Positions 5,750 through 46,993 of a DNA stretch of 54,765 nucleotides are shown one piece after another. The stretch is taken from the IMG/VR virus record IMGVR_UViG_3300048927_000815, positions 1 to 54,765 of that record. One strand, written 5' to 3'. Positions within the stretch are counted from its first letter, which is position 1; each line of letters begins with the position of its first letter. Source of the stretch: a virus. Below the pieces are notes generated by a model. It searched no databases. It had not been told where the DNA came from and saw only the letters and a list, made by a program, of their open reading frames with translations. A program made the translations under genes and the position numbers.

Positions 5750-5790
5750 ACCATGGAAAAAACCTTCCGGATGGTAAGAGACGCAAAACG

Positions 5791-5994: not shown

Positions 5995-6206
5995 GTATCG
6001 AGAGAATCAGCTCGTCGCTGGCCTACTGGATTAGCGTCGCCCTGACCTTTTTTGGCGCCATGACGCCACAAGACTTTGCTGCTTACTTCGGCGCACTCGG
6101 CGTCGCCATGACCGTCGGCGTGAACTGGTATTACCGCCGTAAAAGCTATCTGTTCCTCAAATCCTGTGCGGTGAGCCAGGAGGTGGTCAATGGGCTTACC
6201 CGTTAA
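5985..6206 (+). CDS. Holin, HP1/186-type (prophage A)
   Basis: A 73-aa membrane protein with two hydrophobic segments: one around 13-30 (SLAYWISVALTFFGAM) and one around 34-50, followed by a basic NWYYRRKS. It fits the HP1-family holin that forms the membrane lesion or depolarises the membrane to activate the SAR endolysin encoded next. It overlaps gpX at its start and the endolysin at its end, indicating coupled translation in the lysis cassette. Confidence 0.85.
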   Translation: MGVSIERISSSLAYWISVALTFFGAMTPQDFAAYFGALGVAMTVGVNWYYRRKSYLFLKSCAVSQEVVNGLTR

Positions 6207-6699
6207 ACGCTGTAGCGCGGCGGCCGTGTTGGCGCTGGCGCTGCTGCTGCCCGATTTTCATCTGCTGCACACCTCACAGGCGGGGCTGGCGCTGATTACC
6301 GATCTCGAAGGCTGTCGTCTGCGCCCCTATCAGTGCAGCGCGGGAGTCTGGACCTCGGGGATTGGCCACACGGCGAAAGTGATTCCCACGCGCGATATCA
6401 GCGAAAAAGAGGCCGCCGTCAACCTGGTTGCCGACGTGCTGAACGTTGAGCGCCGCCTGGCGCACTGCGTGCCGGTGGAGATGCCGCAACCGGTCTATGA
6501 CGCGGTAGTCAGTTTCACCTTTAACGTCGGCAGCGGCGCGGCGTGCGCCTCAACGCTTGCCTGGCACCTGCGCCAGAAGGCGTGGAAACAGGCCTGCGAT
6601 CAGCTGCCGCGCTGGGTCTATGTCGATGGCGTACGCAACCGCGGGCTGGAAAACCGCCGCCAGCGTGAGCGCGACTGGTGCCTCCGGGGGGTGAAATGA
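6190..6699 (+). CDS. SAR endolysin, GH24 lysozyme with catalytic Cys (prophage A)
   Basis: Muramidase that degrades peptidoglycan. An uncleaved signal-anchor (SAR) segment lies at about 9-28 (AAAVLALALLLPDFHLL). The GH24 triad is E40-x8-C49-x5-T55 in EGCRLRPYQC-SAGVWT, with cysteine in place of the usual aspartate as in phage P1 Lyz. Cysteines at 8, 42 and 49 match the P1 arrangement, in which a disulphide caging the catalytic cysteine is swapped for one with the SAR cysteine on membrane release. It is thus probably held inactive until the holin acts. 169 aa. P2 itself uses an unrelated endolysin (gpK). Confidence 0.9.
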   Translation: MGLPVKRCSAAAVLALALLLPDFHLLHTSQAGLALITDLEGCRLRPYQCSAGVWTSGIGHTAKVIPTRDISEKEAAVNLVADVLNVERRLAHCVPVEMPQPVYDAVVSFTFNVGSGAACASTLAWHLRQKAWKQACDQLPRWVYVDGVRNRGLENRRQRERDWCLRGVK

Positions 6700-7127
6700 G
6701 CACCCGCCTGATGATAGTGGCCGCGCTCCTGGCGACGCTGACCGGGCTGTGGTTGTTTGAGCAAAACCACGCTCTGCGTGCGTCTTTAGCCAACGCGCAG
6801 CAACTGGCGCAGGAGCAGAACGCCACGCTGACGCGCCTTAAAACTGCCCTCAATGCCACCGCCGAACTGGCGGCAAAGAACCAGCAGGCGCAGGTCACGC
6901 TGCGACAGCAGCTCGATGCCGCCAGCGCGCAGGCGCTGCAACGAGAAAACGCGATCGCGAGGTTATTAAATGAGAACGAGGCTTTTCGCCACTGGTATCG
7001 CACTGAGTTACCTGATGCTGTGCGCCGGGTGCACCAGCGCCCCGCCTGCCCCTCCGCCGCTCATTGTCTACAACAGCTGCCCGCAGGTCAGCCTCTGCCC
7101 GATGCCGGCAAGCACGCCGCAAACTAA
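6696..7127 (+). CDS. lysB: LysB-like i-spanin (Rz-type), prophage A
   Basis: Inner-membrane spanin subunit. The 143-aa protein has an N-terminal membrane anchor (about 5-20, MIVAALLATLTGLWLF) and a long periplasmic coiled coil rich in A, Q, L and E (about 25-90). It works with the nested lipoprotein LysC to fuse inner and outer membranes in the last step of lysis. I chose the ATG at 6696, overlapping the endolysin stop (ATGA), with GGGGG upstream. Confidence 0.85.
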   Translation: MSTRLMIVAALLATLTGLWLFEQNHALRASLANAQQLAQEQNATLTRLKTALNATAELAAKNQQAQVTLRQQLDAASAQALQRENAIARLLNENEAFRHWYRTELPDAVRRVHQRPACPSAAHCLQQLPAGQPLPDAGKHAAN

Positions 7128-7260
7128 CGGCGATTTGAGCGCCGATATCCGCCAGCTTGAGCACGCGCTGGTGCAGTGCGCGCTGCAAGTTGAAACCCTT
7201 AAACATTGCCAGGATGAGATCAATGCTAAAACCCAACTCTCTGCGCAGCGCCCTGATTAA
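6970..7260 (+). CDS. lysC: LysC-like o-spanin lipoprotein (Rz1-type), nested in lysB, prophage A
   Basis: Outer-membrane spanin lipoprotein. The 96-aa protein starts inside lysB in the +1 frame. The signal peptide ends in a lipobox LMLCAGC (lipidated Cys near residue 18-21), followed by a proline-rich PAPPPL element, the usual Rz1 mark. It extends past lysB and overlaps gpR. Nested Rz/Rz1 is typical of this group. Confidence 0.85.
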   Translation: MRTRLFATGIALSYLMLCAGCTSAPPAPPPLIVYNSCPQVSLCPMPASTPQTNGDLSADIRQLEHALVQCALQVETLKHCQDEINAKTQLSAQRPD

Positions 7261-7690
7261 CGCCGTCCCGGCGCTGCACGATACCCCCTCGATGCTGCGC
7301 CTGTGGGTCGATAAAGGCAGCAATATCGCCACGCTCGCCAGCTCCTTATCGTTTGAAAAACTGTTCAGCCTCAACGTCACCATCACCGGTTTCAGCGGCG
7401 ATATCGACACGCTGTTTGTGCCGGTAATGGCGTGGCTGCGCGATAACCAGCCCGACATTCTCTCCGTCGAAGCGGGGCAGAAAGGCGGCTTTAGCTGGAC
7501 GCTGCTGACCAATGCCGACGGTACCCAGGATGTGACGATGGTGCTCCAGCTGACCGAGCGCACCCAGGTGAAAGAGCTCAACGGCGCGCTGATTGCCGAA
7601 ACGCTGCCGGAGCCGCTGCCGCCGGCCTTCGTCACCCGTCCGAAAGAGCTCTATATCAACGGCGAGCTGGTGAGCCGCTGGCAGGCGTGA
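7223..7690 (+). CDS. R: Tail completion protein gpR (prophage A)
   Basis: P2 gpR family tail-completion protein of 155 aa. Signature parts are the LKPNSLRSAL start, ASSLSFEKLFSLN, VMAWLRDNQPDI and an ending ELYINGELVSRW. It closes the head-proximal end of the tail. The ATG at 7223 aligns with the prophage B start. The expected next gene, S, is absent; a 7-bp-stem hairpin (GCAGGCG-TGAT-CGCCTGC, 7681-7698) sits at the stop codon where S would begin. Confidence 0.9.
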   Translation: MLKPNSLRSALINAVPALHDTPSMLRLWVDKGSNIATLASSLSFEKLFSLNVTITGFSGDIDTLFVPVMAWLRDNQPDILSVEAGQKGGFSWTLLTNADGTQDVTMVLQLTERTQVKELNGALIAETLPEPLPPAFVTRPKELYINGELVSRWQA

Positions 7691-7718
7691 TCGCCTGCGC
7701 CATACGCCACGGGCTGCG

Positions 7719-7779
7719 TTGTGCCAAAAGCCGGACAGCCTTGTTCAATTTTCAAAACCGGGGACGCATAGCATCATTT
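7719..7779 (+). promoter_or_regulatory. Ogr-type late promoter of the V-W-J-I operon (prophage A)
   Basis: TTGT-N12-ACAG at 7719-7738 is the closest match here to the P2 late-promoter activator site TGT-N12-ACA. A -10 region around 7771-7779 (GCATCATTT) lies at the standard distance, just before the gpV start. The equivalent region of prophage B is 42675-42735. Confidence 0.6.
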
Positions 7780-7784
7780 CGCTT

Positions 7785-8420
7785 ATGAACAGACAACTTT
7801 CGCTTCACGAGCTGGCCCGCCAGCTTCGCAATATGATCCGCACCGGAATTATCGTTGAGGTCGACCTGAAAGCCGGGCGCTGCCGGGTGCAGACCGGCGG
7901 TATGGTGACCGACTGGCTACAGTGGTTAACCCACCGCGCCGGGCGTTCGCGCAGCTGGTGGGCCCCCTCCGTCGATGAGCAGGTGTTACTGCTTGCGGTC
8001 GGCGGCGAGCTGGAGACCGCCTTCGTGATGCCGGGGATTTATGCCAACGATCATCCGGCACCCTCCGCCTCGGCGGACGCCTGGCACGTCACTTTTCCCG
8101 ATGGCGCGATGTTTGAATATGAACCACAGACCAGCGCCCTGAAGGTGAGCGGCATTAAAACCGCCGATATCACCGCCTCCGAGTCGATTACCGCCAGCGT
8201 GCCGCAAGTGCTGGTGAAAGCCTCGACGCGCATCACCCTCGATACGCCGGAAGTGGTCTGCACCAATAAGCTGATCACCGCCACGCTGGAGGTGCAAAAA
8301 GGCGGCACGATGAGCGGCAATGTGACGCACAGCGGCGGCTCGCTCACCTCGAACGGCAAAGTGCTGCATAGCCACCAACACCCCGGCGACAGCGGCGGCA
8401 CCACAGGAGCACCTTTATGA
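7785..8420 (+). CDS. V: Baseplate spike protein gpV (prophage A)
   Basis: Membrane-piercing spike at the tip of the contractile tail. The 211-aa protein has the N-terminal OB-type region (about 1-95, RCRVQTGGMVTDWLQWLT), then the beta-helix part (TPEVVCTNKLITATLEVQKG) and the tip with the histidine cluster HSHQHPGDSGG, which in P2 gpV binds a metal ion at the spike apex. The start at 7785 aligns with P2 and prophage B; no S gene precedes it. Confidence 0.95.
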   Translation: MNRQLSLHELARQLRNMIRTGIIVEVDLKAGRCRVQTGGMVTDWLQWLTHRAGRSRSWWAPSVDEQVLLLAVGGELETAFVMPGIYANDHPAPSASADAWHVTFPDGAMFEYEPQTSALKVSGIKTADITASESITASVPQVLVKASTRITLDTPEVVCTNKLITATLEVQKGGTMSGNVTHSGGSLTSNGKVLHSHQHPGDSGGTTGAPL

Positions 8421-8764
8421 CAGCACGTTATTTCGGCCTCGATCGCACCAGCGGGCGCAGCCTGACCGACGTCGACCATATCCGCCAGAGTATCAGCGAT
8501 ATTCTGCGCACGCCGGTGGGCTCGCGCGTGATGCGCCGCGATTACGGTTCGCTGCTGTTCGATATGCTCGATCAGCCGCAAACCCCGGCGCTGGCGCTGC
8601 AAATTCAGGTGGCCTGCTACATGGCGCTGCTGCAATGGGAGCCGCGCATCACCCTCAGCGCGGTGACGGCCGAACGTCAGTTCGACGGCAAGATGGTGGT
8701 CAATCTGACCGGTCAGCTTGCCAGCACCGGCGAGTCCCTCTCTTTAACCCTTCCTGTGAGTTGA
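8417..8764 (+). CDS. W: Baseplate wedge protein gpW (prophage A)
   Basis: A 115-aa gp25-like baseplate wedge protein (GPW/gp25 family), with the characteristic SISDILRTPVGSRVMRRDYG stretch near residues 24-43. It initiates sheath assembly at the baseplate. It overlaps gpV by 4 bp (ATGA) and is followed after 4 bp by gpJ. It is intact and very similar to the prophage B copy. Confidence 0.95.
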   Translation: MTARYFGLDRTSGRSLTDVDHIRQSISDILRTPVGSRVMRRDYGSLLFDMLDQPQTPALALQIQVACYMALLQWEPRITLSAVTAERQFDGKMVVNLTGQLASTGESLSLTLPVS

Positions 8765-8768
8765 TACC

Positions 8769-9677
8769 ATGCCGATTATCGATCTGAGCCAACTGCCCGC
8801 GCCCGATGTCGTCGAGGCGCTGGATTATGAGCGCATCCTGGATGAGCGCAAAACCACTCTTGTTTCACTCTTTCCCGCCGATCAGCAGGAGGCCATCGCC
8901 CGTACGCTGGCGCTGGAGTCCGAGCCGCTGACCAAGTTTCTCGAAGAGAATGCTTACCGCGAAGTGATGTGGCGCCAGCGCGTCAACGAAGCGGCCCGCG
9001 CGGTGATGCTCGCGTATGCTTCCCGCAGCGATCTCGATGCCATCGCGGCGAACAGCAACACCGCGCGGCTGGTGATCGCCCCTGCTGATGAGAGCACCAT
9101 ACCGCCCACGCCGGCAGTAATGGAGTCCGATACCGATTTACGCCTGCGCGCGCAGCAGGCTTTTGAAGGGCTAAGCGTGGCCGGGCCGGTGGGTGCGTAT
9201 GAGTATCACGGCCGCAGCGCCGATGGTCGCGTGGCGGATATCTCTGCCGTCAGCCCGTCCCCCGCCTGCGTCACCATCTCTGTGCTCTCCCGCGAAGGCG
9301 ACGGTACCGCCAGCCCTGAACTGCTGGCGATTATCGATAAAGCACTTAACGCGGAGGATGTGCGCCCGGTCGGCGATCGCGTGACGGTACAGAGCGCTAA
9401 AATTGTGCCCTACCAGATTGATGCCACGCTTTTTCTCTATCCCGGACCTGAATCGGAGCCGATTCGCCAGGCGGCTGAGCAGAAGCTGAAAGCCTATATC
9501 ACCGCCCAGCGCCGACTGGGGCGCGATATTCGCCTGTCGGCAATCTACGCAGCGCTCCACGTTGAGGGCGTGCAGCGGGTGGTATTGAACGCACCGCAGC
9601 AAGATATTGTGCTCGATCAGAGCCAGGCCTCCTGGTGTACGGCGTGGAAAATCACCACCGGAGGTACCGATGAGTGA
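8769..9677 (+). CDS. J: Baseplate assembly protein gpJ (prophage A)
   Basis: A 302-aa baseplate wedge subunit of the P2 gpJ (Baseplate_J) family. It begins PIIDLSQLPAPDVVE and contains AGPVGAYEYHGRSADGRVADIS and the EGVQRV element near the end; these blocks match the copy in prophage B closely. It is full length. It overlaps gpI, whose start lies 8 bp inside its end. Confidence 0.95.
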   Translation: MPIIDLSQLPAPDVVEALDYERILDERKTTLVSLFPADQQEAIARTLALESEPLTKFLEENAYREVMWRQRVNEAARAVMLAYASRSDLDAIAANSNTARLVIAPADESTIPPTPAVMESDTDLRLRAQQAFEGLSVAGPVGAYEYHGRSADGRVADISAVSPSPACVTISVLSREGDGTASPELLAIIDKALNAEDVRPVGDRVTVQSAKIVPYQIDATLFLYPGPESEPIRQAAEQKLKAYITAQRRLGRDIRLSAIYAALHVEGVQRVVLNAPQQDIVLDQSQASWCTAWKITTGGTDE

Positions 9678-10281
9678 CGACCGTCTGTTGCCTGTTGGCT
9701 CATCGGTTCTTGAGGTGGCGACAGCACACGCGGCGGCGCAGATTGAATGCGTACCGGTGCCGCTGCGCACGCTGTGGGATCCGCTAACCTGCCCGGCCGA
9801 GCTGCTGCCCTATCTCGCCTGGGCACTCTCCGTTGACCGCTGGGATTTTAACTGGCCGGAAGCGACCAAACGTAAGGTGATCGCCTCCTCCTTTTTCGTC
9901 CATCAACATAAAGGGACGCGCAGCGCCATTCACCGGGTGGTTGAGCCGCTCGGCTTCCTGATTGAGCTGCGTGAGTGGTGGCAGGATAACGCCGAACCCG
10001 GCACTTTCCGGCTGGTGATCGGCGTCCAGGAGAACGGCATTACCGAGGAGACGTACCAGGAGCTGGAGCGGCTGATTAATGATGCCAAACCGGCAAGCCG
10101 CCATTTGACGGAGCTGAATATCAGTCTCAGCAGCCAGGGCGAGTGCTACGTTGGCGCGGCCTGCTACCTTGGCGAGGAGCTGACGGTCTACCCTTACAGC
10201 CCGGAAGAGATTGTTGTCGGTGGTGAAAGCTATGCCGCATCGGCAATCCACCTGATTGATAGCCTCACTATCACGGTTTAA
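9670..10281 (+). CDS. I: Tail protein gpI (prophage A)
   Basis: P2 gpI-family baseplate protein linking the wedge to the tail fibres. The 203-aa protein has LLPVGSSVLEVA at its start, TLWDPLTCPAELLPYLAWAL and the SVDRWD element. It is 27 residues longer than the prophage B version (176 aa) because of an extra C-terminal region (ELTVYPYSPEEIVVGGESYA). The ATG at 9670 follows GGAGG. In prophage B the fibre gene follows within 11 bp; here the operon ends in a terminator. Confidence 0.93.
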   Translation: MSDDRLLPVGSSVLEVATAHAAAQIECVPVPLRTLWDPLTCPAELLPYLAWALSVDRWDFNWPEATKRKVIASSFFVHQHKGTRSAIHRVVEPLGFLIELREWWQDNAEPGTFRLVIGVQENGITEETYQELERLINDAKPASRHLTELNISLSSQGECYVGAACYLGEELTVYPYSPEEIVVGGESYAASAIHLIDSLTITV

Positions 10282-10291
10282 CCCTCCCCTT

Positions 10292-10313
10292 CGGGCTACG
10301 GCCCGTTTTTTTT
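10292..10313 (+). terminator. Terminator after gpI (prophage A)
   Basis: CGGGC-TACG-GCCCG followed by eight T residues just after the gpI stop codon. It isolates the baseplate operon from the first fibre cassette. Confidence 0.88.
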
Positions 10314-10323
10314 ATCTACCCTG

Positions 10324-10384
10324 TTGTGTGCCCCTCAGACCAACGCCGCCGCGTGGCGTCCGCCAGGTGCTGAACGGAAAATAT
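10324..10384 (+). promoter_or_regulatory. Ogr-type late promoter of fibre cassette 1
   Basis: TTGT-N12-CCAA at 10324-10343 with GGAAAATAT at 10376-10384. The sequence CTGAACGGAAAATATC and its spacing recur before fibre 2, showing that terminator, promoter and gene were duplicated as a unit. Confidence 0.7.
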
Positions 10385-10422
10385 CCCTACCGTTCACTGC
10401 TCAACAAACCTGAGAGAATCCC

Positions 10423-11385
10423 ATGTCTGTAAAATATTTCGCGATTTTGACCCATCAGGGCGCGGCGAAGCTGGCGAACGCCACCGCGCTTGGCACGACG
10501 CTTAACCTCACGCAGTTGGCCATCGGGGATGGCAACGGCACGCTGCCGGTACCGGACGCGGCGCAAACCCGGCTCATTAATCAGACACGCATCGCGCCGC
10601 TCAATGCCCTGTCGGTCGACCCGGAGAACCCAAGCCAGATAGTAGCGGAGCAGATTATCCCGGAGAATGAGGGCGGGTACTGGATCCGCGAGCTGGGTCT
10701 GTTCGATGACGCAGGGGTCTTGATTGCGGTGGCGAACTGCCCGGAGACCTACAAACCGCAGCTACAGGAGGGCAGTGGACGCACGCAGACCATTCGCATG
10801 GTGGTGGTGGTCTCCTCAACAGCAGCCGTGACGTTGAAAATCGATCCATCGGTGGTGCTGGCAACGCGTAAATACGCCGACGATCTGCTGGCCGGACACC
10901 TGAAGGCGCCGAATCCCCATCCGCAGTATCTACAGATTGCCGATATCGCCTCCTTCACCCCGGTCGGCGTGCCGCTGCCCTACCCGTCTGCCACTCCGCC
11001 TGACGGCTGGCTAAAATGCAACGGCGCGGCCTTTAATAAAGGGCAGTATCCAAAGCTGGCGGCCCTGTTTCCCTCAGGCAATTTGCCGGATCTGCGCGGC
11101 GAGTTTATTCGCGGCTGGGATGATGGACGCGCAGTGGATAGCGGGCGTGCCCTTTTAACCAGTCAGGCTGATGAGATAAAGAAATTCACGCTTAAATATC
11201 TAGGCCCAGGAGCGGGAACAGGTTCAACGACAGTTTTTGCATTGCAAAGCGGTATGAACCCGATCTATACCAGCGGGATTAGCCAGGCGGTAAACAGTTC
11301 TACTGCCGATGCGTTTCAGATTCCGGGTGGGAATGAAACCCGACCGCGCAACGTCGCCTTTAACTACATCATCAGAGCAGCGTAA
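10423..11385 (+). CDS. Tail fibre protein 1 (gpH-like), prophage A
   Basis: A 320-aa short tail fibre. The N-terminal ~150 residues are the P2 gpH attachment domain (KYFAILTHQGAAKLANA, then EGGYWIRELGLFDDAGVLIA), which docks on the baseplate. A phage tail-collar element follows at about 180-240 (GVPLPYPSATPPDGWLKCNG, LPDLRGEFIRGWDDGR), then a variable tip, ending NVAFNYIIRAA. It is about half the length of the prophage B fibre (608 aa) because the repeat shaft is missing. The tip should determine receptor specificity. No chaperone gene follows it. Confidence 0.9.
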   Translation: MSVKYFAILTHQGAAKLANATALGTTLNLTQLAIGDGNGTLPVPDAAQTRLINQTRIAPLNALSVDPENPSQIVAEQIIPENEGGYWIRELGLFDDAGVLIAVANCPETYKPQLQEGSGRTQTIRMVVVVSSTAAVTLKIDPSVVLATRKYADDLLAGHLKAPNPHPQYLQIADIASFTPVGVPLPYPSATPPDGWLKCNGAAFNKGQYPKLAALFPSGNLPDLRGEFIRGWDDGRAVDSGRALLTSQADEIKKFTLKYLGPGAGTGSTTVFALQSGMNPIYTSGISQAVNSSTADAFQIPGGNETRPRNVAFNYIIRAA

Positions 11386-11401
11386 TCCTCTCTATATCCC
11401 A

Positions 11402-11423
11402 ACGGGCATCGCCCGTTTTTTTT
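11402..11423 (+). terminator. Terminator after fibre 1
   Basis: ACGGGC-ATC-GCCCGT followed by a run of T residues, 16 bp after the fibre 1 stop codon. It closes the single-gene cassette. Confidence 0.88.
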
Positions 11424-11432
11424 CCAGCCCTG

Positions 11433-11493
11433 TTGTGTGAGTTCACAACCAACGCCCCTTAATGGTGTTTGCCTGCGGCTGAACGGAAAATAT
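11433..11493 (+). promoter_or_regulatory. Ogr-type late promoter of fibre cassette 2
   Basis: TTGT-N12-CCAA at 11433-11452 with GGAAAATAT at 11485-11493. It is identical in spacing to the fibre 1 promoter and nearly identical around the -10 box, but diverged between them. Confidence 0.7.
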
Positions 11494-11535
11494 CGCCATC
11501 GTTCACTTCTCAACAAACAACCTGAGAGCGTATGC

Positions 11536-12639
11536 ATGACCGCAAAATATTTCGCTATTTTGACTAACCTGGGGGCGGCAAAGCTTGCAAATGCCGCCGC
11601 GCTGGGCACGCAAATCAACCTGACGCAGATGGCAGTCGGCGATGCCAATGGCCAGCTACCTACACCCGATCCGGCGCAGACCCAACTGATTAACCAGAAG
11701 CGTATCGCGCCGCTAAACCGGCTCTCGATTGACCCGAAAAATGGCAACCAGATTGTTGCTGAACAGGTGATTCCGGAAACTGAAGGTGGCTTCTGGATCC
11801 GTGAAATTGGCCTCTATGACGATGCTGGCGTGCTGATTGCGGTGGCGAACTGCCCGGAAACCTATAAACCGCAGCTGCAGGAGGGTAGCGGACGCACGCA
11901 GACCATCCGTATGGTGGTGCTCGTCTCCTCAACGGCGGCGGTGACGCTGAAAATCGATCCGTCGGTGGTGCTGGCCACCCGCCAGTATGCTGATGACCTG
12001 CTGAGTAATCATCTCAAGGCCGCCAATCCACATCCGCAATATGCACCGCTCGCCAGCCCAGCGTTCACGGGGATCCCGACGGTTCCGGACACGCTGGTGA
12101 GTAATTACGGTCAGCAGATTGCCAATACCAAATATGTGCGTGATGTGGTGGCAAATGATGCCTACATTCTGCCGGTAGGTGTGCCGGTCGCCTGGCCGCT
12201 CGCGGAGCCACCACTAGGCTGGCTCATCTGCAACGGCGCCACGTTCGACAAAACAAAGCTTCCGCGCCTGGGGGCAGCTTACCCGGCCGGTTTACTGCCG
12301 GATCTGCGCGGGGAGTTTATTCGCGGTTGGGACGCTGGGCGCGGAGTGGATCCTGCACGTGCGTTACTAAGCTGGCAGAAAGGGACCATTAATATCAACG
12401 ATCCTTCACTCAGCTCGGTAAACCTGGCCAGCCCAATTCATGCCAATGACAACGTGGCCACTGCCAGGAGTGACTTCGGATTAGACCCTGTGATGAAAAG
12501 CGATTATGCAAATGTGATGAATGCGCTTTTTGTCACCCAGGATGCCGCAATTGATATGGATGCCGGCGGGTTTGCCGGAGGCTATGGCAGCACCCGTCCA
12601 CGCAACATTGCCTTTAACTACATCGTGAGAGCCGCATAA
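11536..12639 (+). CDS. Tail fibre protein 2 (gpH-like), prophage A
   Basis: A 367-aa fibre with almost the same N-terminal attachment domain as fibres 1 and 3 (AKYFAILTNLGAAKLANA). It differs in the middle (ASPAFTGIPTVPDTLV is a tail-fibre repeat element) and tip, with a collar domain around 215-275 (AEPPLGWLICNG, LPDLRGEFIRGWDAGR), ending [12 protein letters not shown] chose ATG at 11536, which aligns with the other fibres; upstream in-frame codons run through the promoter. Its stop overlaps the start of the chaperone gene (TAATG), so this fibre is the chaperone's likely main client. Confidence 0.9.
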   Translation: MTAKYFAILTNLGAAKLANAAALGTQINLTQMAVGDANGQLPTPDPAQTQLINQKRIAPLNRLSIDPKNGNQIVAEQVIPETEGGFWIREIGLYDDAGVLIAVANCPETYKPQLQEGSGRTQTIRMVVLVSSTAAVTLKIDPSVVLATRQYADDLLSNHLKAANPHPQYAPLASPAFTGIPTVPDTLVSNYGQQIANTKYVRDVVANDAYILPVGVPVAWPLAEPPLGWLICNGATFDKTKLPRLGAAYPAGLLPDLRGEFIRGWDAGRGVDPARALLSWQKGTININDPSLSSVNLASPIHANDNVATARSDFGLDPVMKSDYANVMNALFVTQDAAIDMDAGGFAGGYGSTRPRNIAFNYIVRAA

Positions 12640-13235
12640 TGACCACCGCAATTTTGAACGAAAACCACCTGGCCAGCCAGGCGGGCACTGTCACCGTCTA
12701 TAACTTTGACGGGGGAAGCCGCGAATATCTCGGCAGCACCGTCGAGTATCTTGCCGTCGGCGTCGGTATTCCGGCGAACGCGGCGCTTGATAAGCCTTTA
12801 GCAGCGAAACCGGATTTCGCGGTGCGCCGCAACGCAGCGCTGGATGGCTGGGAGTATGCTCCTGACCATCGCGGCAGCGAGGTGTATGACAAAATCACTG
12901 GCGAGAAAAAGACGCTGGCGCAGCTGGGCGATTACCCGGATGATGTCACCCCCCTTGCCCCCGCCACACCCTATGACGTCTGGAATGGCAGCGGCTGGGT
13001 AACGGATGAGGTCGCACAGCAGGCCGCGCATATCGCGCAGGCAGAGCAGACCAAGACCCGTCTGCTCAACAATGCGAAAAACACCATCAGCCTGTGGCAG
13101 ACCGAACTGCAGCTCGGCATCATCAGCGATGATGATAAAACGCAGCTTATCGCCTGGATGCGCTACATTCAGGCGCTGCAGAAAGTCGATACGGCAACCG
13201 CGCCCGATATCGCCTGGCCTGAACAGCCGCAATAA
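12639..13235 (+). CDS. Tail fibre assembly chaperone Tfa (gpG-like), prophage A
   Basis: A 198-aa member of the caudoviral tail-fibre-assembly family, required for folding and trimerisation of fibre tips. Family marks are the central DHRGSEVYDKITGEK and the C-terminal AQTE-rich helices ending in a proline-rich PDIAWPEQPQ. It is coupled to fibre 2 by TAATG. It is the only clear gpG-like chaperone in prophage A, so it may also serve fibre 1, whose end resembles that of fibre 2. Confidence 0.9.
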   Translation: MTTAILNENHLASQAGTVTVYNFDGGSREYLGSTVEYLAVGVGIPANAALDKPLAAKPDFAVRRNAALDGWEYAPDHRGSEVYDKITGEKKTLAQLGDYPDDVTPLAPATPYDVWNGSGWVTDEVAQQAAHIAQAEQTKTRLLNNAKNTISLWQTELQLGIISDDDKTQLIAWMRYIQALQKVDTATAPDIAWPEQPQ

Positions 13236-13241
13236 AAGATG

Positions 13242-13260
13242 ACGGGCTGCGGCCCGTTTT
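13242..13260 (+). terminator. Terminator after Tfa
   Basis: ACGGGC-TGCG-GCCCGT followed by TTT, directly after the chaperone gene. The same stem sequence recurs after gpI and fibre 1, so it is part of the duplicated cassette boundary. Confidence 0.75.
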
Positions 13261-13340
13261 GCCGGGTGGCACTGCGTTTACCCGGCCTACAACATCCCCT
13301 GGCCTGATAACGCGACGCCGCATCAGGCTTTACCGTTGGG

Positions 13341-13402
13341 TTGTCCCGCCTGGCAGCCAACCGCATTCGATAGCCCCTTCCCCAAAATGCCCACGACAAT
13401 AG
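13341..13402 (+). promoter_or_regulatory. Ogr-type late promoter of fibre cassette 3
   Basis: TTGT-N12-CCAA at 13341-13360 with ACGACAATAG at 13393-13402, at the spacing shared by all late promoters here. The rest of the 206-bp gap between Tfa and fibre 3 (13236-13441) holds only the terminator, a GCCGGGT-rich stretch and the ribosome site (CTGAGAG). Confidence 0.65.
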
Positions 13403-13441
13403 CGTTTACTCAATCGCAAACCTGAGAGTGAACGCCTGACT

Positions 13442-14977
13442 ATGAAATATTTTGCCATTCTGACTAACCAGGGTGCCGCGAAGCTTGCGAACGCCGCCGC
13501 GCTCGGCACGCAGCTGAAGCTGACCCATATGGCCACCGGCGACGGTAACGGCAGCCTGCCAACGCCCGATCCCGCACAAACGAAGCTGGTTAACCAGAAA
13601 CGTATTGCGCCACTGAATATGCTGTTCGTCGACCCTGGTGACGCGAACCAGATTATCGCCGAACAGGTCATCCCCGAGAATGAAGGCGGTTTCTGGATCC
13701 GCGAAATCGGCCTTTATGACGCCGATGGCACGCTGATTGCCGTTGCTAACTGCCCGGAGACCTATAAACCGCTTCTGCTGGAGGGCAGCGCCCGCACACA
13801 AACCCTGCGTATGGCGCTGGTGGTCTCTGCTACCTCGGCGGTAAGCCTGAAAATCGATCCGGCTGTGGTGCTGGCGACGCGTAAGTATGTCGATGACAGA
13901 GCGCTTGGAGTACAGGTCTATGCTGATGAGGTAATGAAAAAACACCTGGCTACCGATAACCCACATGCGCAGTACGCATCTGTGAAAGCAATGGCAGCCG
14001 AACTGGAGAAGAAGCTGGATAAGGGCGTTACAGGGATAACACTGCCGGCCGGATATAACATCCCCTTTCATATCCGCAATACGCAGGGTCTGATCTACAC
14101 CGCAACATCGCCTGGCACTTACACTAACGAGCCGGAGTTTGACAGCGAGTTTTTCGATGTCATGGCCATGCGGCACTCAGAAAACAACGGCGGTGAAGTC
14201 ACGTTTATTGCCGTAAGCAAGTCGGGAAAAATCGCGACCGCAGCGCTTTCCGGTGATGATTTCTCCGGCTGGAATCCTCTTCTTGACTTTACACATACCA
14301 CCCCGGCAGGGCGCCAACTTATTGGCAAAAATAACGCCGGTGAGATGGTGGAATACCTTGGCCTCAATTCTATCCCCGGACGTTTATTGAATTTCCGAAA
14401 AATAACTACTTCTGGGATCTACACGCCTACGGCGGGAACCCGCTGGATTATTGTTGAACAGACGGGCGCGGGCGGCGCAAGCGGCAATCTAACCGCAACC
14501 AGCACAGGTGAGAATGCGATTAGCGCAGCAGGTTCAAACGGTACGTATGCAAAAGCGCTTATTACGGCAGGTTTCAGCTCAGTTAATGTGACTATCGGCT
14601 CCGGTGGCCAGCCTAATGGCGGCGCAGGTGGCAATGGTGGCAATGGCGGAACAACTTCATTTGGCTCGCTGGTGATTTGCCCTGGCGGCAAAGGCTCTGG
14701 CGTGGGGTACTCAAATTTGCCGCCCTTTAACAACGGCGGTGCAACAGGCTCTGCCCAGCCTACTGGGGTCGGTATTCTTTACTCCCTTTATGGCATCAGT
14801 TCCCCCTGGCCGACTGTAGTAGCCGTCGGTCAGGGCAGTAATTTTACGGCGACCACACCCACGCCGCTGGGGCGATACGGTATGGGTGGTGATGGGCTGG
14901 TAAGTAATGAAGCTGAGAAGGCAAAAACCGGTAATGCAGGGACTTCAGGTTACGTAATTGTTTGGGAGTACGCGTAA
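13442..14977 (+). CDS. Tail fibre protein 3 with glycine-rich tip, prophage A
   Basis: A 511-aa fibre. The first ~155 residues repeat the gpH-type attachment domain (KYFAILTNQGAAKLANA, EGGFWIREIGLYDADG). A middle section around 185-290 (TLPAGYNIPFHIRNTQG, GWNPLLDFT) resembles pyocin-knob type receptor modules. From about 330 the C-terminus is glycine-rich (GAGGNGGNGGTTSFG), recalling polyglycine adhesin tips, and ends GYVIVWEYA rather than the usual FNYIVRAA. It therefore probably recognises a different receptor from fibres 1 and 2. A small gene follows with TAATG overlap. Confidence 0.88.
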   Translation: MKYFAILTNQGAAKLANAAALGTQLKLTHMATGDGNGSLPTPDPAQTKLVNQKRIAPLNMLFVDPGDANQIIAEQVIPENEGGFWIREIGLYDADGTLIAVANCPETYKPLLLEGSARTQTLRMALVVSATSAVSLKIDPAVVLATRKYVDDRALGVQVYADEVMKKHLATDNPHAQYASVKAMAAELEKKLDKGVTGITLPAGYNIPFHIRNTQGLIYTATSPGTYTNEPEFDSEFFDVMAMRHSENNGGEVTFIAVSKSGKIATAALSGDDFSGWNPLLDFTHTTPAGRQLIGKNNAGEMVEYLGLNSIPGRLLNFRKITTSGIYTPTAGTRWIIVEQTGAGGASGNLTATSTGENAISAAGSNGTYAKALITAGFSSVNVTIGSGGQPNGGAGGNGGNGGTTSFGSLVICPGGKGSGVGYSNLPPFNNGGATGSAQPTGVGILYSLYGISSPWPTVVAVGQGSNFTATTPTPLGRYGMGGDGLVSNEAEKAKTGNAGTSGYVIVWEYA

Positions 14978-15168
14978 TGGCAATTTATGCAGTAGTTGAA
15001 AAAGGTGTCGTGACAAATATCGTCGAATGGGATGGGCAATCTGCATGGAAACCCGACGCGGGGGATGTTATCCATCCCGGCGTTCCGGTAAGCCCGGGCT
15101 GGTTATATGACGGACATAATTTTACTGCGCCGGAGAGCGATGGAATGCCGCCCTTTAACCTCAAATAG
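14977..15168 (+). CDS. Small tail-fibre-linked protein (prophage A)
   Basis: A 63-aa protein (MAIYAVVEKGVVTNIVEWDG, later PGWLYDGHNFTAPE) of the small type often found after phage tail fibre genes, possibly a fibre accessory or chaperone for fibre 3. It starts in the fibre stop codon (TAATG), so it is translationally coupled. I do not recognise a named family. A strong terminator follows it. Confidence 0.7.
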   Translation: MAIYAVVEKGVVTNIVEWDGQSAWKPDAGDVIHPGVPVSPGWLYDGHNFTAPESDGMPPFNLK

Positions 15169-15185
15169 TGAATTACATGACAACG

Positions 15186-15216
15186 ACGCCGTGGAAAACC
15201 CACGGCGTTTTATATT
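15186..15216 (+). terminator. Terminator after fibre cassette 3
   Basis: ACGCCGTGG (15186-15194) pairs with CCACGGCGT (15200-15208) across AAAAC, followed by TTTATATTA. It ends the third fibre cassette before the sheath operon. Confidence 0.88.
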
Positions 15217-15240
15217 ATGCATCCCAGAGGCCATCACCGG

Positions 15241-15301
15241 TTGTGCCATCCTTTAGCCAATCCTCTCCGCTCGCACCCGCTCTTCAGACACTCGAAAATA
15301 G
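15241..15301 (+). promoter_or_regulatory. Ogr-type late promoter of the FI operon (prophage A)
   Basis: TTGT-N12-CCAA at 15241-15260 with CGAAAATAG at 15293-15301. From the -10 box to the FI start the sequence is nearly identical to that of prophage B (48088 onward). Confidence 0.72.
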
Positions 15302-15331
15302 CACTCACCCCAACACCACGGAGTTAAACGG

Positions 15332-16513
15332 ATGAGTGATTATCATCATGGCGTTCAGGTCGTCGAAATCAACGATGGCACGCGCGTCATTTCCACAGTC
15401 TCAACGGCCATTGTCGGCATGGTTTGTACCGCCAGCGATGCAGACGCGGGGATGTTCCCCCTCAATGAACCGGTTCTGATCACCAACGTGCAGAGCGCGA
15501 TTGCCAAAGCGGGCAAACAAGGCACGCTGGCAGCTTCGCTGCAGGCGATTGCTGACCAGGCGAAACCGGTGATTATTGTTGTTCGCGTTGCCGAAGGCAG
15601 CGGTGAGGATGCCAAGGCGCAGACCCTCTCCAACATCATCGGCACCACCGACGAAAATGGTAAATATACCGGCCTGAAAGCGCTGCTGACCGCCGAAGCG
15701 GTGACCGGCGTGAAACCGCGCATTCTCGGCGTACCGGGTCTTGATAGCCTCGAAGTCGCTACCGCGCTGGCACCGATCTGCCAGAAGCTGCGCGCCTTCG
15801 GTTATGTCAGCGCCTGGGGCTGCAAAACCATTTCTGAAGCGATCAAGTATCGCGAAAACTTCAGCCAGCGCGAACTGATGGTCATTTGGCCAGATTTCCT
15901 CGCCTGGGATACCGCCAGCAACAGCTCTTCTGTCGCTTACTCGACGGCTCGCGCGCTGGGTCTGCGTGCGGCGATCGACCAGTCCGCCGGCTGGCATAAA
16001 ACCCTCTCCAATGTCGGCGTCAATGGCGTTACCGGCATCAGCACCCCGGTGTTCTGGGATCTGCAGGAGTCGGGCACCGATGCCGATCTGCTGAACGAAG
16101 CGGGCGTTACCACGCTGATTCGCAAAGATGGCTTCCGTTTCTGGGGCAACCGCACCTGCTCCGACGATCCGCTGTTCCTGTTTGAAAACTACACCCGTAC
16201 CGCGCAGGTGATTGCCGACACCATGGCTGATGCGCATATGTGGGCAGTGGACAAACCGATCACCGCATCGCTGATTCGCGACATCATCGACGGCATCAAT
16301 GCCAAATTCCGCGAACTGAAAAGCAATGGCTACATCATCGATGCCACCTGCTGGTTCGATGAAGAGGCTAACGACGCCGCATCGCTGAAGGCGGGCAAGC
16401 TCTATATCGATTACGACTATACGCCGGTGCCGCCTCTGGAAAACCTGACCCTGCGCCAGCGCATCACGGATAAGTATCTGGCGAACCTGGTCTCCTCAGT
16501 TAACAGCAAGTAA
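15332..16513 (+). CDS. FI: Tail sheath protein gpFI (prophage A)
   Basis: The contractile sheath subunit, 393 aa, of the P2 FI family. It begins SDYHHGVQVVEINDGTRVIS and includes GFRFWGNRTCSDDPLFLFEN and the ending LRQRITDKYLANLVSSVNSK. It is very similar to the prophage B protein (396 aa), differing by a short indel near residue 90. Full length, so a working contractile sheath is expected. It is followed after 11 bp by the tube gene. Confidence 0.97.
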   Translation: MSDYHHGVQVVEINDGTRVISTVSTAIVGMVCTASDADAGMFPLNEPVLITNVQSAIAKAGKQGTLAASLQAIADQAKPVIIVVRVAEGSGEDAKAQTLSNIIGTTDENGKYTGLKALLTAEAVTGVKPRILGVPGLDSLEVATALAPICQKLRAFGYVSAWGCKTISEAIKYRENFSQRELMVIWPDFLAWDTASNSSSVAYSTARALGLRAAIDQSAGWHKTLSNVGVNGVTGISTPVFWDLQESGTDADLLNEAGVTTLIRKDGFRFWGNRTCSDDPLFLFENYTRTAQVIADTMADAHMWAVDKPITASLIRDIIDGINAKFRELKSNGYIIDATCWFDEEANDAASLKAGKLYIDYDYTPVPPLENLTLRQRITDKYLANLVSSVNSK

Positions 16514-16524
16514 GGAACAGATAG

Positions 16525-17043
16525 ATGGCAATGCCGCGAAAACTTAAATATATGAACGTGTTCCTCAATGGCTTTAGCTATCAGGGGATCGCCAAATCCA
16601 TCACGCTGCCGAAGCTGACCCGCAAGCTGGAGAACTACCGTGGCGCAGGCATGAACGGCGTAGCACCGATTGATATGGGTCTCGATGACGAAGCCCTGTC
16701 GATGGAGTGGTCGCTGGGCGGCTTCCCGGATGCTGCCATCTGGGAACTCTATGGTGCCACCACCGCGGATGCGGTTCCGATTCGCTTTGCCGGCTCCTAC
16801 CAGCGCGATGACACCGGCGAGACGGTTGCCGTTGAAGTGGTCATGCGTGGTCGTCAGAAAGAGATCGACACCGGTGAGAACAAGCCGGGCGAAGATACCG
16901 AGTCCAAAATCTCCGTGGTCTGCAGCTACTTCAAGCTGACGATGGATGGCAAGGAGCTGGTGGAAATCGACACCGTCAACATGGTGGAGAAAGTGAACGG
17001 CGTCGATCGCCTTGAGCAGCACCGCCGTAACATCGGCCTGTAA
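16525..17043 (+). CDS. FII: Tail tube protein gpFII (prophage A)
   Basis: The inner tube subunit, 172 aa, P2 FII family. It starts AMPRKLKYMNVFLNGFSYQG and ends DRLEQHRRNIGL; it is almost the same as the prophage B copy. The tube is what a tailocin drives through the target envelope. It is intact and co-transcribed with FI. Confidence 0.97.
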   Translation: MAMPRKLKYMNVFLNGFSYQGIAKSITLPKLTRKLENYRGAGMNGVAPIDMGLDDEALSMEWSLGGFPDAAIWELYGATTADAVPIRFAGSYQRDDTGETVAVEVVMRGRQKEIDTGENKPGEDTESKISVVCSYFKLTMDGKELVEIDTVNMVEKVNGVDRLEQHRRNIGL

Positions 17044-17049
17044 TAACCG

Positions 17050-17071
17050 CCCGGTCAGCCTGCTGGCCGGG
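17050..17071 (+). terminator. Conserved hairpin between FII and E (attenuator-like), prophage A
   Basis: CCCGGTCAGC pairs with GCTGGCCGGG right after the FII stop codon. The same stem with a different loop is present in prophage B (49856-49877). It has no strong T tract, so it may stabilise the abundant FI/FII mRNA or reduce downstream expression rather than fully terminate. Confidence 0.45.
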
Positions 17072-17105
17072 TACCTTTTCCCGCGAAGAAGAGAGTGAGG
17101 ATGCC

Positions 17106-17387
17106 ATGAGCAACGAAACTGACAACGTGATTACCCTGGAAACGCCGATTAAGCGCGGTGAGCAGCTGATTAACAGCGTGACGCTGATGAAACCCAACGC
17201 CGGTACGCTGCGCGGATTGAGCCTGGCGTCGGTGGCGAATGCCGATGTCGATGCGCTGATCAAAGTGCTGCCGCGCATCACCTCCCCGTCGCTGACGGAG
17301 CAGGAAGTGGGCGCTCTCGACCTGGTCGATATGGTTGCGCTGGCGGGCAAGGTGGTCGGTTTTTTGTCACCGGCTTCGGCACAGTAA
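17106..17387 (+). CDS. E: Tail assembly chaperone gpE (prophage A)
   Basis: A 93-aa tail assembly chaperone of the P2 E type (ENA/TLETPIKRGEQLI, LRGLSLASVANADVDALIKV). It helps fold or wrap the tape-measure protein during tail assembly. Its 3' end contains the TTTTTTG slip site at 17360-17366 used to make the longer E+E' product. Confidence 0.93.
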   Translation: MSNETDNVITLETPIKRGEQLINSVTLMKPNAGTLRGLSLASVANADVDALIKVLPRITSPSLTEQEVGALDLVDMVALAGKVVGFLSPASAQ

Positions 17388-17539
17388 CTTTTCCGGCCTC
17401 TCTGTCGGTTGACGATCTGATGGCGGATATCGCGGTGATCTTTCACTGGCCGCCGTCAGAACTCTACCCCCTGAGCCTGACAGAACTCATCACCTGGCGC
17501 GAGAAAGCGCTACAGCGAAGCGGAAACAGATATGAGTAA
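17106..17539 (+). CDS. E': Frameshifted tail assembly chaperone gpE+E' (prophage A)
   Basis: Product of a -1 frameshift at T-TTT-TTG (17360-17366). Ribosomes slipping back continue GFGTVTF...SVDDLMADIAVIFHWPPSE to a TAA at 17537-17539, giving about 144 aa. The same slip site and extension exist in P2 (E') and in prophage B. The extension ends 8 bp inside the tape-measure gene start at 17532. The frameshift mechanism is established for P2; its use here is inferred from the conserved site and extension. Confidence 0.88.
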
Positions 17540-19394
17540 CAGCGCAAAATTAGAGGAATTGCTCACGGCTGTTGATCAGGCGACGCGCCCGTTTCAATCG
17601 TTGCAGACAGAGAGTCTCTCTCTGTCTGACAGCGTGAAAGGAACGGAGAAAAACCTGCGCGGCTTGTACACCCAGCTTGCGCAGGTCGACGACATCATGC
17701 GCGCGGAAAAAGCCCTTGCCTCCGTCAATGCGCAGCTGAGCGACATCAAACAGAACAGGCAAAATGCCGCCAACGGCACAGCAGCGCCAGCGATTGTCGA
17801 TCCCTGGAGCGGAAAACCTAAGTCGGAGAAAGCGCTTAAGAAGGAACGTCTTACCCTGCGCAGAACGATCAAAGCTAATAAGACCTCCCTGAAGACAGCC
17901 GGTATTGAGGCGAGAACGCCGTTATCCGCGCGACTCCAGCTCAATAGCCGTATCAGCGATGAGTCGGCACAGTTGATCACCCAGCGCCAGGCGCTCAAAC
18001 AGGAGCAGCACCAGAAGCGCCAGCTACGTGCGGCAAAAATCCAGGCCGTGCAGCAGCGCATTCTGGGCGCAGGCGAAAAGGTCTCCGCCATTGGCGAGAG
18101 AGGCAAGTCGATTGCCACCACCGGCTTTGAACTCGGCAAAAAAATTATGCAGCCGGGCTATGAAGCCTCGCTGAAAAACAGCCCGCTTGCGCCGGCTGCG
18201 GCGTCCGATAACGCAGAGCCCGGTGCACAGAACAGTACCCCCGCCTCCGGAACAGCGGTCGCTACGCTGCAAAATGGCTCGGGAACAGCCGTTGCTACCC
18301 TGCAAAACAGTACCGGAGCTCCGGGAACGGCGGTCGCAGCACTGCAGAATAGCGCTGCCGGCCCCGCCGCGGCGATGCAGAGCAGTGTCGGCAACCTGGG
18401 TACCGATCTTGAGGCGCTGCAGGCGGCTTATCAGTCCCTGAGCGTTGATATTTTCAGTACCCAGGAGTCATCCCTGCGCTCGCTGGTGCAGACTGCGACC
18501 CGCTATGTCGGGAAGCTGCAGGAGTGGGTGCAAAACAACCAGGGGCTGGTGCAGAGCTTTGGGCTTATTGCTACGGTCGTGGTGGGCATTGCAGGCGCTG
18601 TCGGCACCGTAGCGGGCGTTATCGCGCCGGTGTTCACCGGCATCAGCACGCTTATCACCATCGCGACGACGCTCGGCAGCGTATTTACCACTATTTTCGG
18701 CGGGATAGCGGCAGTGATTGGCTCACTCACGCTACCGATTGTCGCCACTATTGCCGGCATCGCGGCAGCTGCGCTGCTGATATATAAGTACTGGGAGCCG
18801 GTTAGCGCCTTCTTTGGCGGTGTCATTGAAGGCATCAAAACGGCGTTTGCCCCCATCGCCGAGTTGTTTGCGCCGTTCCAGCCGCTTTTCGAAGGTATCG
18901 GCCAGGTGATAAGTAACATTGCAGGGTGGTTCGGCGATCTGCTCACCCCCGTCAAATCCAGCCAGCAAACCCTTGAGAGCTTCGGTAACGCCGGAAAGAT
19001 TTTCGGTCAACTGCTGGTTGAGGCACTGACACTGCCTTTCAAACCGCTAAAACTGCTGATCGAGGGCGTCACCTGGTTGCTGGATAAGCTTGGCGTTATT
19101 AACAAACAATCCGCTGATGCCAGCCCGGATAAGCAAACCCAACCGACCACTGGCGGTGCAGCGTTTGGCATGGTGCAACCTCCACGCTTAGACAATTATC
19201 AGGCGGCGCGCCCTGCGACCGGCGGATCCTATGTCGATCAAAGCAAGAGCGAATACAACATCACTCTGCAGGGAGATATGTCATCCGGCGGCGATGGCAC
19301 GCGCCAGTTAAGAGATCTGCTGGCGCAGCACGAGCAGGAGAAACGCACTAACTCCCTTTCACAATTCAGCGCGGCAGGAGGATTTGCCTCATGA
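17532..19394 (+). CDS. T: Shortened tape-measure protein gpT (prophage A)
   Basis: Tape-measure protein, 620 aa against 821 in prophage B and about 815 in P2. Both ends match: an N-terminal coiled coil (1-200), and from about 286 the QESSLRSLVQTATRYV block, two hydrophobic stretches (about 342-418) and a C-terminal helical region. The central core (prophage B residues about 217-485, a TP901-type tape-measure domain) is replaced by about 70 residues rich in A, P, G and S with three GTAVA[TA]LQN repeats (240-273). Tail length scales with this protein, so the tail should be about a quarter shorter. The reading frame is intact. Confidence 0.93.
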   Translation: MSNSAKLEELLTAVDQATRPFQSLQTESLSLSDSVKGTEKNLRGLYTQLAQVDDIMRAEKALASVNAQLSDIKQNRQNAANGTAAPAIVDPWSGKPKSEKALKKERLTLRRTIKANKTSLKTAGIEARTPLSARLQLNSRISDESAQLITQRQALKQEQHQKRQLRAAKIQAVQQRILGAGEKVSAIGERGKSIATTGFELGKKIMQPGYEASLKNSPLAPAAASDNAEPGAQNSTPASGTAVATLQNGSGTAVATLQNSTGAPGTAVAALQNSAAGPAAAMQSSVGNLGTDLEALQAAYQSLSVDIFSTQESSLRSLVQTATRYVGKLQEWVQNNQGLVQSFGLIATVVVGIAGAVGTVAGVIAPVFTGISTLITIATTLGSVFTTIFGGIAAVIGSLTLPIVATIAGIAAAALLIYKYWEPVSAFFGGVIEGIKTAFAPIAELFAPFQPLFEGIGQVISNIAGWFGDLLTPVKSSQQTLESFGNAGKIFGQLLVEALTLPFKPLKLLIEGVTWLLDKLGVINKQSADASPDKQTQPTTGGAAFGMVQPPRLDNYQAARPATGGSYVDQSKSEYNITLQGDMSSGGDGTRQLRDLLAQHEQEKRTNSLSQFSAAGGFAS

Positions 19395-21060: not shown

Positions 21061-21255
21061 ATGATGCATTGTCCGGTATGCCAGCAGGCCGCGCATGCGC
21101 GCTCAAGCCGCTACCTCAGTACCGAAACCAAAGAGCGTTATCACCAGTGCCAGAACGTTGAGTGTGGTTGTACGTTTGTCACCCATGAATCGCTGGCACG
21201 CTATATTGTCCGGCCTGTGGCAGCGCCCACCGCTTCGCCTGCCAGCCTGCGCTAA
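21061..21255 (+). CDS. ogr: Late gene activator Ogr/Delta (prophage A)
   Basis: A 64-aa zinc-finger transcription activator of the Ogr/Delta family. Zinc ligands C4, C7, C30 and C35 are present in HCPVCQ and HQCQNVEC, with the family sequence TKERYHQCQN. It activates RNA polymerase at the TGT-N12-ACA-type late promoters. P2 Ogr is 72 aa; this one is shorter at the C-terminus. It closes the prophage and is followed by a terminator. The homologue in prophage B is close enough that each might serve both elements. Confidence 0.95.
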   Translation: MMHCPVCQQAAHARSSRYLSTETKERYHQCQNVECGCTFVTHESLARYIVRPVAAPTASPASLR

Positions 21256-45166: not shown

Positions 45167-46993
45167 ATGACTGCAAAATACAGAACGGTGGTCACCACCG
45201 CAGGCGCGGCAAAATTTGCCGCCGCGCTCACACCGGGCAGTAAGAAAGTGAACATTACCGCGATGGCCGTCGGCGACGGCGGCGGAAAACTTCCCCAGCC
45301 CGACGCTGGTCAGACAAAGCTGATTAATGAAGTCTGGCGCAATAAGCTGAATAAAATCAGCCAGGACAATAAAAACAAAAATTACATCGTGGCCGAGCTG
45401 GTTATCCCGCCGGAGACGGGCGGGTTCTGGCTGCGTGAAATGGGGCTCTATGACGACACCGGCACGCTGGTTGCCGTCAGCAATATGGCTGAGAGTTATA
45501 AGCCAAAACTCGAAGAGGGTTCCGGGCGGGCGCAGACCCTGCGCATGGTTATCGTTCTGTCGGATCTGGCGTCCGTTGAGCTGAGTATCGACGCCACAAC
45601 CGTGATGGCCTCGCAGGATTACGTTGACAGCAAGCTCCTTGAGCATGAGCAGTCGCGCCGCCACCCTGATGCGACGCTCAGCGCAAAAGGGTTTACCCAA
45701 CTGAGCAGCGCGACCGACAGCCCGTCGGAGACGCTCGCCGCCACACCGAAAGCTGTTAAGGCGGCGTACGACCTTGCCCGCGCCAAATACACCGCGCAGG
45801 ACGCCACCACGACGCAAAAAGGTATCGTGCAGCTCAGCAACGCAACCGACAGCGAGTCAGAAGCGCACGCCGCCACCTCAAAAGCGCTTAAAGCCGTGGT
45901 TGATTATGCGAGCTCAAAATATGTTGCGCAGGACGCCACCACGGCGCAGAAAGGCATTATCCGTCTTTACAGCGGTACCGACAGCAACACGGAGGCGCTT
46001 GCCGCGACGCCAAAAGCGGTCAAAACAGCCTACGATACGGCAGTGAGAGCGAATGAGAATGCCGAGGGACGCGTCCCGAAAGGGGCTGGGCTCAATACCT
46101 ACGCTGAGCTTATCGGTGATGTTGCGGTTGAGCTGCGCCAGCGTTCAGGTTTTTTTAATTCGCCCTCCGCGTTAAACGGGATGCCCGGCGGTCACCCCTG
46201 GAAGCATTACATCAATTCTGCTCACGGCAACAGCGTCGGTTACAACACGACAATCGGGATTGATTTCTACGGCAAATACATCGGTTTTGCCGCTGTCTGC
46301 GACGGTAAATTCAACGGCTGGAAAATGATCCATCACGACGGTTATAACACCTGTCCGGTGGGTACCCCGATCCCGTGGCCGTCCGACATCATCCCCGAAG
46401 GTTATGCCCTGATGGCGGGTCAGTCGTTCAATAAAGCCGCGTATCCGTTTCTGGCGGCGGCGTATCCGTCAGGTGTGATCCCGGATATGCGCGGCTGGAC
46501 GGTCAAAGGTAAACCGGCAGGGGGGCGCGCCGTGTTATCTCAGGAACTGGACGGCATTAAATTTCATGCCCACAGCGCCAGCGCCTCAAGCACCGATCTC
46601 GGGACGAAAGCGACCAGCGCATTTGACTATGGCACCAGGGCGACGAGCACGTTTGATTACGGAACGAAGTCAACCAACACGGCGGGCGAACATACGCACG
46701 TTTCGGGGGTGAGGACGCCGCCGGATGTGGCGCTTTACGGGGTGGTGGCTGCCTCCGCAGGGAATTACACGGCGGGTAGTCGCAGTGCCGCAACATCGGC
46801 ATTGACAGGTGCCGCAGGCGCACATGCGCACAGTGTTCCCATCGGTGCACACAGTCACACCTTAGCCCTGGGGGCGCACTCGCACACCGTGGCGATTGGT
46901 GCGCACAGCCACACCGTGACGGTCGCGGGGGCGGGCAATGATGAGAACACCGTTAAAAACATCGCATTTAACTACATCGTGAGGCTTGCATAA
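45167..46993 (+). CDS. H: Tail fibre protein gpH (prophage B)
   Basis: A 608-aa fibre. The N-terminal attachment domain (about 1-155, [35 protein letters not shown]) differs noticeably from that of the three prophage A fibres. Three tail-fibre repeats of the kind [17 protein letters not shown] lie at about 180-290, a tail-collar region ([20 protein letters not shown]) at about 400-455, and a histidine-rich tip with repeated GAHSHT, a metal-binding fibre feature. The receptor is unknown. Confidence 0.93.

Follow-up and report, generated by a model that had tools for sequence, protein, structure and literature searches.

The sequence studied is the IMG/VR virus record IMGVR_UViG_3300048927_000815, analysed over its full length of 54,765 bases (positions 1-54765, hereafter the window). 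Two elements related to phage P2 stand head to tail in it, the capsidless element A (1-21500) and the intact P2-like prophage B (21527-54765); their integrases are related. Element A contains int, a repressor gene, the replication gene A, X, lysis genes, V, W, J, I, a fibre region, FI, FII, E, T, U, D and ogr. Prophage B has the same gene order, with Q, P, O, N, M, L and one fibre gene in addition. For tail gene I of element A, the nearest named relative is Kosakonia cowanii (99%). The analysis concerns the fibre region of element A.

Tail genes I and FI flank three full-length fibre genes of the PF12571 (Phage_tail_fib) family (Table 1), each of which begins with the attachment domain. Fibres 1 and 2 carry a PF07484 Collar tip, whereas fibre 3 ends in a glycine-rich C-terminus that has no Pfam or NCBIfam match. 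A sequence search of the Protein Data Bank with fibre 3 gave no match. The three fibre genes described in the first-pass annotation of this DNA, two with collar-type tips and one glycine-rich, were confirmed, with PF12571 matched in all three and PF07484 in fibres 1 and 2. Its description of the attachment domains as nearly identical was overstated: they are 82% identical between fibres 1 and 2, 75% between fibres 1 and 3 and 78% between fibres 2 and 3.

Table 1. Features of the fibre region and of its reference loci in the window, and stand-alone fibre arrays (aa, amino acids; nt, nucleotides; ORF, open reading frame).
Feature	Position	Strand	Remarks
PV-type late promoter site TTGT-N12-GACA	7719..7738	+	66 nt upstream of V; motif reference; conserved in Kosakonia loci
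Tail gene I	9670..10281	+	Tail_P2_I, PF09684; last gene ahead of the fibre region
Hairpin after gene I	10292..10313	+	CGGGC-TACG-GCCCG; stem-loop 10292-10305; U8 tract
Ogr-type site, fibre 1	10324..10343	+	TTGTGTGCCCCTCAGACCAA; -10-like GAAAAT at 10377-10382
Fibre 1	10423..11385	+	320 aa
Hairpin after fibre 1	11401..11423	+	CGGGC/GCCCG; stem-loop 11401-11417; U8 tract
Ogr-type site, fibre 2	11433..11452	+	TTGTGTGAGTTCACAACCAA; -10-like GAAAAT at 11486-11491
Fibre 2	11536..12639	+	367 aa
Tail fibre assembly chaperone	12639..13235	+	Caudo_TAP, PF02413; follows fibre 2
Hairpin after chaperone	13242..13261	+	CGGGC/GCCCG; stem-loop 13242-13257; weak U4 tract
Ogr-type site, fibre 3	13341..13360	+	TTGTCCCGCCTGGCAGCCAA; -10-like GACAAT at 13395-13400
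Fibre 3	13442..14977	+	511 aa
63-aa ORF	14977..15168	+	Overlaps the fibre 3 stop; no family match
Hairpin after fibre 3 cassette	15185..15209	+	Differs from the other three
Ogr-type site, predicted PF promoter of the sheath operon	15241..15260	+	TTGTGCCATCCTTTAGCCAA; -10-like GAAAAT at 15294-15299
FI, tail sheath	15332..16513	+	
ogr, late-gene activator of element A	21061..21255	+	PF04606, 76.5 bits; CX2CX22CX4C
Single fibre of prophage B	45167..46993	+	No promoter of its own
Array L111 (genome G480)	6908-13948		
Array L114 (genome G711)	7987-14733		
Array L118 (genome G651)	7441-15327		
Array L128 (genome G581)	G581:C11:160306 on		

A composite site was defined as TTGT-N12-CCAA with a -10-like hexamer 34-35 nt downstream. 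Four such sites were found in the window, ahead of the three fibre genes and of FI only, as compared to 0.075 in shuffled sequences. When 20,000 dinucleotide shuffles were made of each of the four gaps alone, composites arose at frequencies of 5e-5 to 2e-4. These values bear out the fixed-spacing TTGT-N12-CCAA motif that had been described for each cassette. A sigma-70 promoter scan gave three matches versus 3.4 in shuffles, none of them at a fibre start and none overlapping the Ogr-type sites. Transcription usually starts 7 nt after the -10 box, and Ogr is known to sit near -55, at promoters that have a -10 box but lack a -35 box. With a start about 7 nt after the -10-like hexamer, the 34-35 nt gap places the centre of the site near -55.

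The consensus of P2 late promoters is TGT-N12-ACA, and Ogr carries the motif CX2CX22CX4C (PMC3931495). All four sites agree with the TGT-N12-[A/C]CA core of P2 promoters. In P2 (KC618326), the PF promoter stands 92 nt ahead of FI and reads TTGTGTCATCCCTTAGCCAA, and its GAAAAT box is in the same register. P2 and element A thus agree in the core and in how far it lies from the -10 box and from FI, and they share an Ogr-family activator with the same cysteine spacing at the same place after D. Because P2's PF promoter matches them in core, spacing and -10 box, the sites ahead of the fibres and FI are read, by sequence comparison, as Ogr-class late promoters. P2, however, has a single fibre gene, H, in the PV operon and without its own promoter, whereas element A repeats the promoter three times, once per fibre. 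As noted in the first-pass annotation, the fibre of prophage B is also without a separate promoter, no TTGT-N12-CCAA site being found upstream of it. An own fibre promoter as a general P2 trait was rejected, since it is absent in P2, EtG and prophage B. No late-promoter site was found directly upstream of V in prophage B.

Terminator-like hairpins bound the cassettes. The CGGGC/GCCCG stem that had been reported as shared is indeed common to three of them, the third having only a U4 tract. By itself the terminator scan carries little weight, with 10 found versus 6.9 expected on shuffles. The hairpin after gene I would separate the fibres from PV transcription, so that each cassette would form a separate, parallel transcription unit.

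The conservation survey drew on seven genome representatives of the Kosakonia clade and on 27 loci from IMG/VR. TTG-N14-CAA, in practice TTGT-N12-[CA]CAA, was present 93-103 nt upstream of 84 of the 88 fibre genes; the comparison with related strains that had been suggested as a check thus came out in favour of the site. Together with the match to the PF promoter of P2, this supports the first-pass division into cassettes with a promoter and a terminator, an arrangement that is real and looks functional. Over 65 distinct sequences, G-TTGT and CAA-C reach 2.0 bits per position and the first C of CCAA 1.67, while the 12-nt spacer averages 0.67 bits and the upstream flank 0.63. Since the core is invariant while spacer and flank drift, the pattern argues for selection on the promoter site, beyond shared ancestry. 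Fibre tips are exchanged between loci. In K. cowanii, fibres occupying the same slot have attachment domains that are 97-98% identical and last 130 aa that average 48-67%. A given tip can occupy different slots in different strains, either 1 and 2 or 2 and 3.

Overall, it is quite probable that element A is a P2-derived R-tailocin with parallel fibre cassettes driven by Ogr. The self-encoded zinc-finger activator would bind and switch on PV, PF and one promoter per fibre together. Each cassette, made of a promoter, a full-length fibre gene, sometimes a chaperone gene, and a terminator, would be induced to a roughly equal level. Fibres sharing a baseplate-attachment domain and differing in their tips would then be incorporated into particles carrying different fibres or mixtures of them, and these could recognise several receptors. 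Co-production of the three fibres and a broadened target range appear to be the most plausible consequence.

Several observations weigh against this reading. Fibre 1 is without a chaperone and fibre 3 has only the 63-aa ORF downstream; some fibres may therefore not fold. The terminator after the chaperone has four T only. The four fibres without a site are two each in L012 and L050 (K. oryzendophytica), where the first fibre abuts gene I and the second has a degenerate downstream half-site, TAAA (read in L012 only).

Among the alternatives, the one that fares best, though improbable, is that a single fibre is in use and that the others form a silent reservoir of tips for recombination, with promoters that hitchhike as copies of PF. 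As a reservoir predicts, tips recur in differing slots across strains, and fibre 1, with its cassette, is missing in L029, L030 and L035. However, hitchhiking is at odds with a promoter core that stays invariant while its surroundings vary. Moreover, all intact K. cowanii fibres retain a full-length reading frame with an attachment domain, whereas the reservoir genes of Xenorhabdus lack this domain (PMC13280938). It is rather unlikely that the fibres come mainly from PV read-through, with the extra promoters just tuning fibre dose with respect to the baseplate. Several fibre trimers per baseplate could need such a boost, and most relatives co-transcribe the fibre with I, but in element A a terminator-like hairpin with a U8 tract directly follows gene I and another follows fibre 1.

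The contractile tail module of element A is complete (X, lysis, R-S, V-W-J-I, fibre, FI-FII, T, U and D; ORFs 5737-20979). No capsid, portal or terminase gene was found in element A, and tblastn with Q, P, O, N, M and L of prophage B matched only prophage B in the window. Wherever a Kosakonia locus covers the interval concerned, replication gene A leads directly to X without these six genes. Because the capsid and packaging genes of prophage B have no counterpart in it, element A, a prophage in the earlier annotation, where its capsidless state had gone unremarked, is better read as a P2-derived R-tailocin-type tail locus than as a complete prophage. Its tape measure protein (17532-19394) has 620 aa as compared to 821 aa in prophage B, which suggests a shorter tail; it has no PF10145 match, and only the end of TIGR01760 was matched.

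That element A is a decayed, functionless prophage whose cassettes are remnants is very unlikely. The loss of the capsid and the persistence of integrase and replication genes would fit recent decay, but the capsidless organisation with intact tail genes recurs genus-wide, in seven Kosakonia representatives and many IMG/VR loci, and Kosakonia particles named kosakonicin have been reported (PMC10598620, citing Patz 2019). Least likely of all, the fibres would serve chiefly as extra host-range modules for prophage B through its Ogr: prophage B adjoins element A and has its own ogr, and a second replication gene directly follows the ogr of element A in genome G756 (L117) too, but the attachment domains of element A are only 51-56% identical to that of the fibre of prophage B, and K. 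cowanii L006 has element A without a second fibre locus.

Two other features of prophage B were recorded. A block of non-structural cargo between replication gene A and the capsid genes (28552-33053) possibly consists of defence or moron genes. A gene inserted between S and V (41917-42672) is HNH-type endonuclease-like by eye.

Fibre number was also compared with capsid content. Among the loci compared, those of Kosakonia without a capsid generally have two or three fibres (L046 is truncated after one), and nearly all capsid-bearing relatives have one. The association between capsid loss and multiple fibres is strong in this sample but not absolute, as L018 is capsidless with one fibre and L112 (G410) is capsid-bearing with two; a single event in an ancestor may account for it in Kosakonia. 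L112, a P2 relative whose second fibre has its own TTGT-N12-ACAA and CATAAT, breaks a one-fibre rule for all capsid-bearing phages. PF12571 was surveyed in genomes of the order (395) and of the family (392). L109 (G558) and L110 (G442) are tail loci with three fibres and no recognisable capsid genes. In both, TGT-N12-ACA lies 96 nt upstream of fibre 1, a full site with CATAAT in register lies 184 nt upstream of fibre 2, and no site was found within 220 nt of fibre 3. A P2-type tail locus in G395 (L105/L106, G395:C1:96001-133000) contains nine PF12571 fibres in about 19 kb, with near-identical leaders and no TTGT-N12-[AC]CAA site. The rule that multiple fibres always come with Ogr promoters is broken by G395, G267 and G526, which have no strict site at the position seen elsewhere. 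Scanning 392 genomes for the strict CATAAT composite turned up 40 matches, spread over 32 of them; the reversed control was similar in number, and the CATAAT pattern alone is therefore not specific outside fibre loci.

Fibre cassettes with the promoter type of the tail loci also stand at cpxP-fieF in four genomes (G711, G651, G480 and G581; one to four cassettes each). L111, L114 and L118 carry up to four fibres with chaperones between cpxAR/cpxP-like genes and NUDIX-fieF-pfkA; gene order was read in L111 and L114, and L118, part of which is masked, is known from its matches only. G581 has one such fibre and a fragment. No tail, capsid or integrase gene was found in the 20 kb read at L111, L114 and L118. 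Most intact array fibres have a site 150-184 nt upstream, followed 34-39 nt on by CATAAT or a one-base variant. G711, G651 and G480 contain exactly one Ogr gene each, beside a sheath gene, and G581 contains two clear ones. The matching capsidless tail locus and ogr are elsewhere in the genome, in G711 and G651 at a distance of about 1.8-1.9 Mb. In these two genomes no capsid genes were recognised in the tail locus, and its own fibre also has an Ogr-type site. The G711 tail locus (L119 10615-18198) includes a Pin-like invertase (16265-16834) and an inverted spare tip (15656-16240), showing that inversion and parallel cassettes coexist in that genome. The arrays probably depend on Ogr supplied in trans. 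Whether a tailocin Ogr reads the promoter-fibre-chaperone-terminator units in trans as portable modules, so that one tailocin draws fibres from a remote arsenal, is in our view evenly balanced.

Kosakonia radicincitans makes the R-tailocin kosakonicin, and rhizosphere tailocins characteristically have more than one fibre gene; simultaneous production of the fibres and a broader target range have been suggested for multi-fibre tailocins of Kosakonia and Pseudomonas (PMC10598620, PMC12090994). Kosakonicin (Patz et al. 2019, cited in both reviews) comes from the same genus as element A and is like it in having a capsidless P2-type tail locus with multiple fibre genes and a proposed broader range; the difference is that per-fibre Ogr promoters are unmentioned in the two reviews. 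By its description, the R-tailocin of Pseudomonas chlororaphis 30-84 is also similar, with three fibre genes in one locus and distinct particles reported (Dorosky 2018, per PMC12090994). Carotovoricin and xenorhabdicin are likewise P2-related tailocins with several alternative tips, but their tips are swapped by DNA inversion. The extra fibre genes of Xenorhabdus seem to be exchanged in this way and are without attachment domain (PMC13280938), whereas the Kosakonia fibres are full length with their own promoter. The Hin/Pin-type invertase and flanking inverted repeats of a carotovoricin-type invertible locus were not found in element A. DNA inversion as the source of its fibre alternatives was rejected, with no invertase among its ORFs and no suitable repeats; across the fibre region there were no long inverted repeats, only four short inverted-repeat pairs. 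Searches of the open-licence literature found no per-fibre promoters (Ogr or late promoter) in tailocins and no description of stand-alone fibre arrays with this promoter type. The multi-fibre Kosakonia tailocin was thus already known, and the repeated PF-type promoter and the stand-alone arrays are those features for which no description was found.

The arrangement would represent a multi-fibre wiring that does without DNA inversion, in which every full-length fibre gene comes with a copy of the P2 late promoter and responds to induction jointly with the others. It would also explain why adding, losing or relocating fibre genes leaves coordinated expression intact. The composite site may also provide a DNA signature for unannotated or orphan tailocin fibres.

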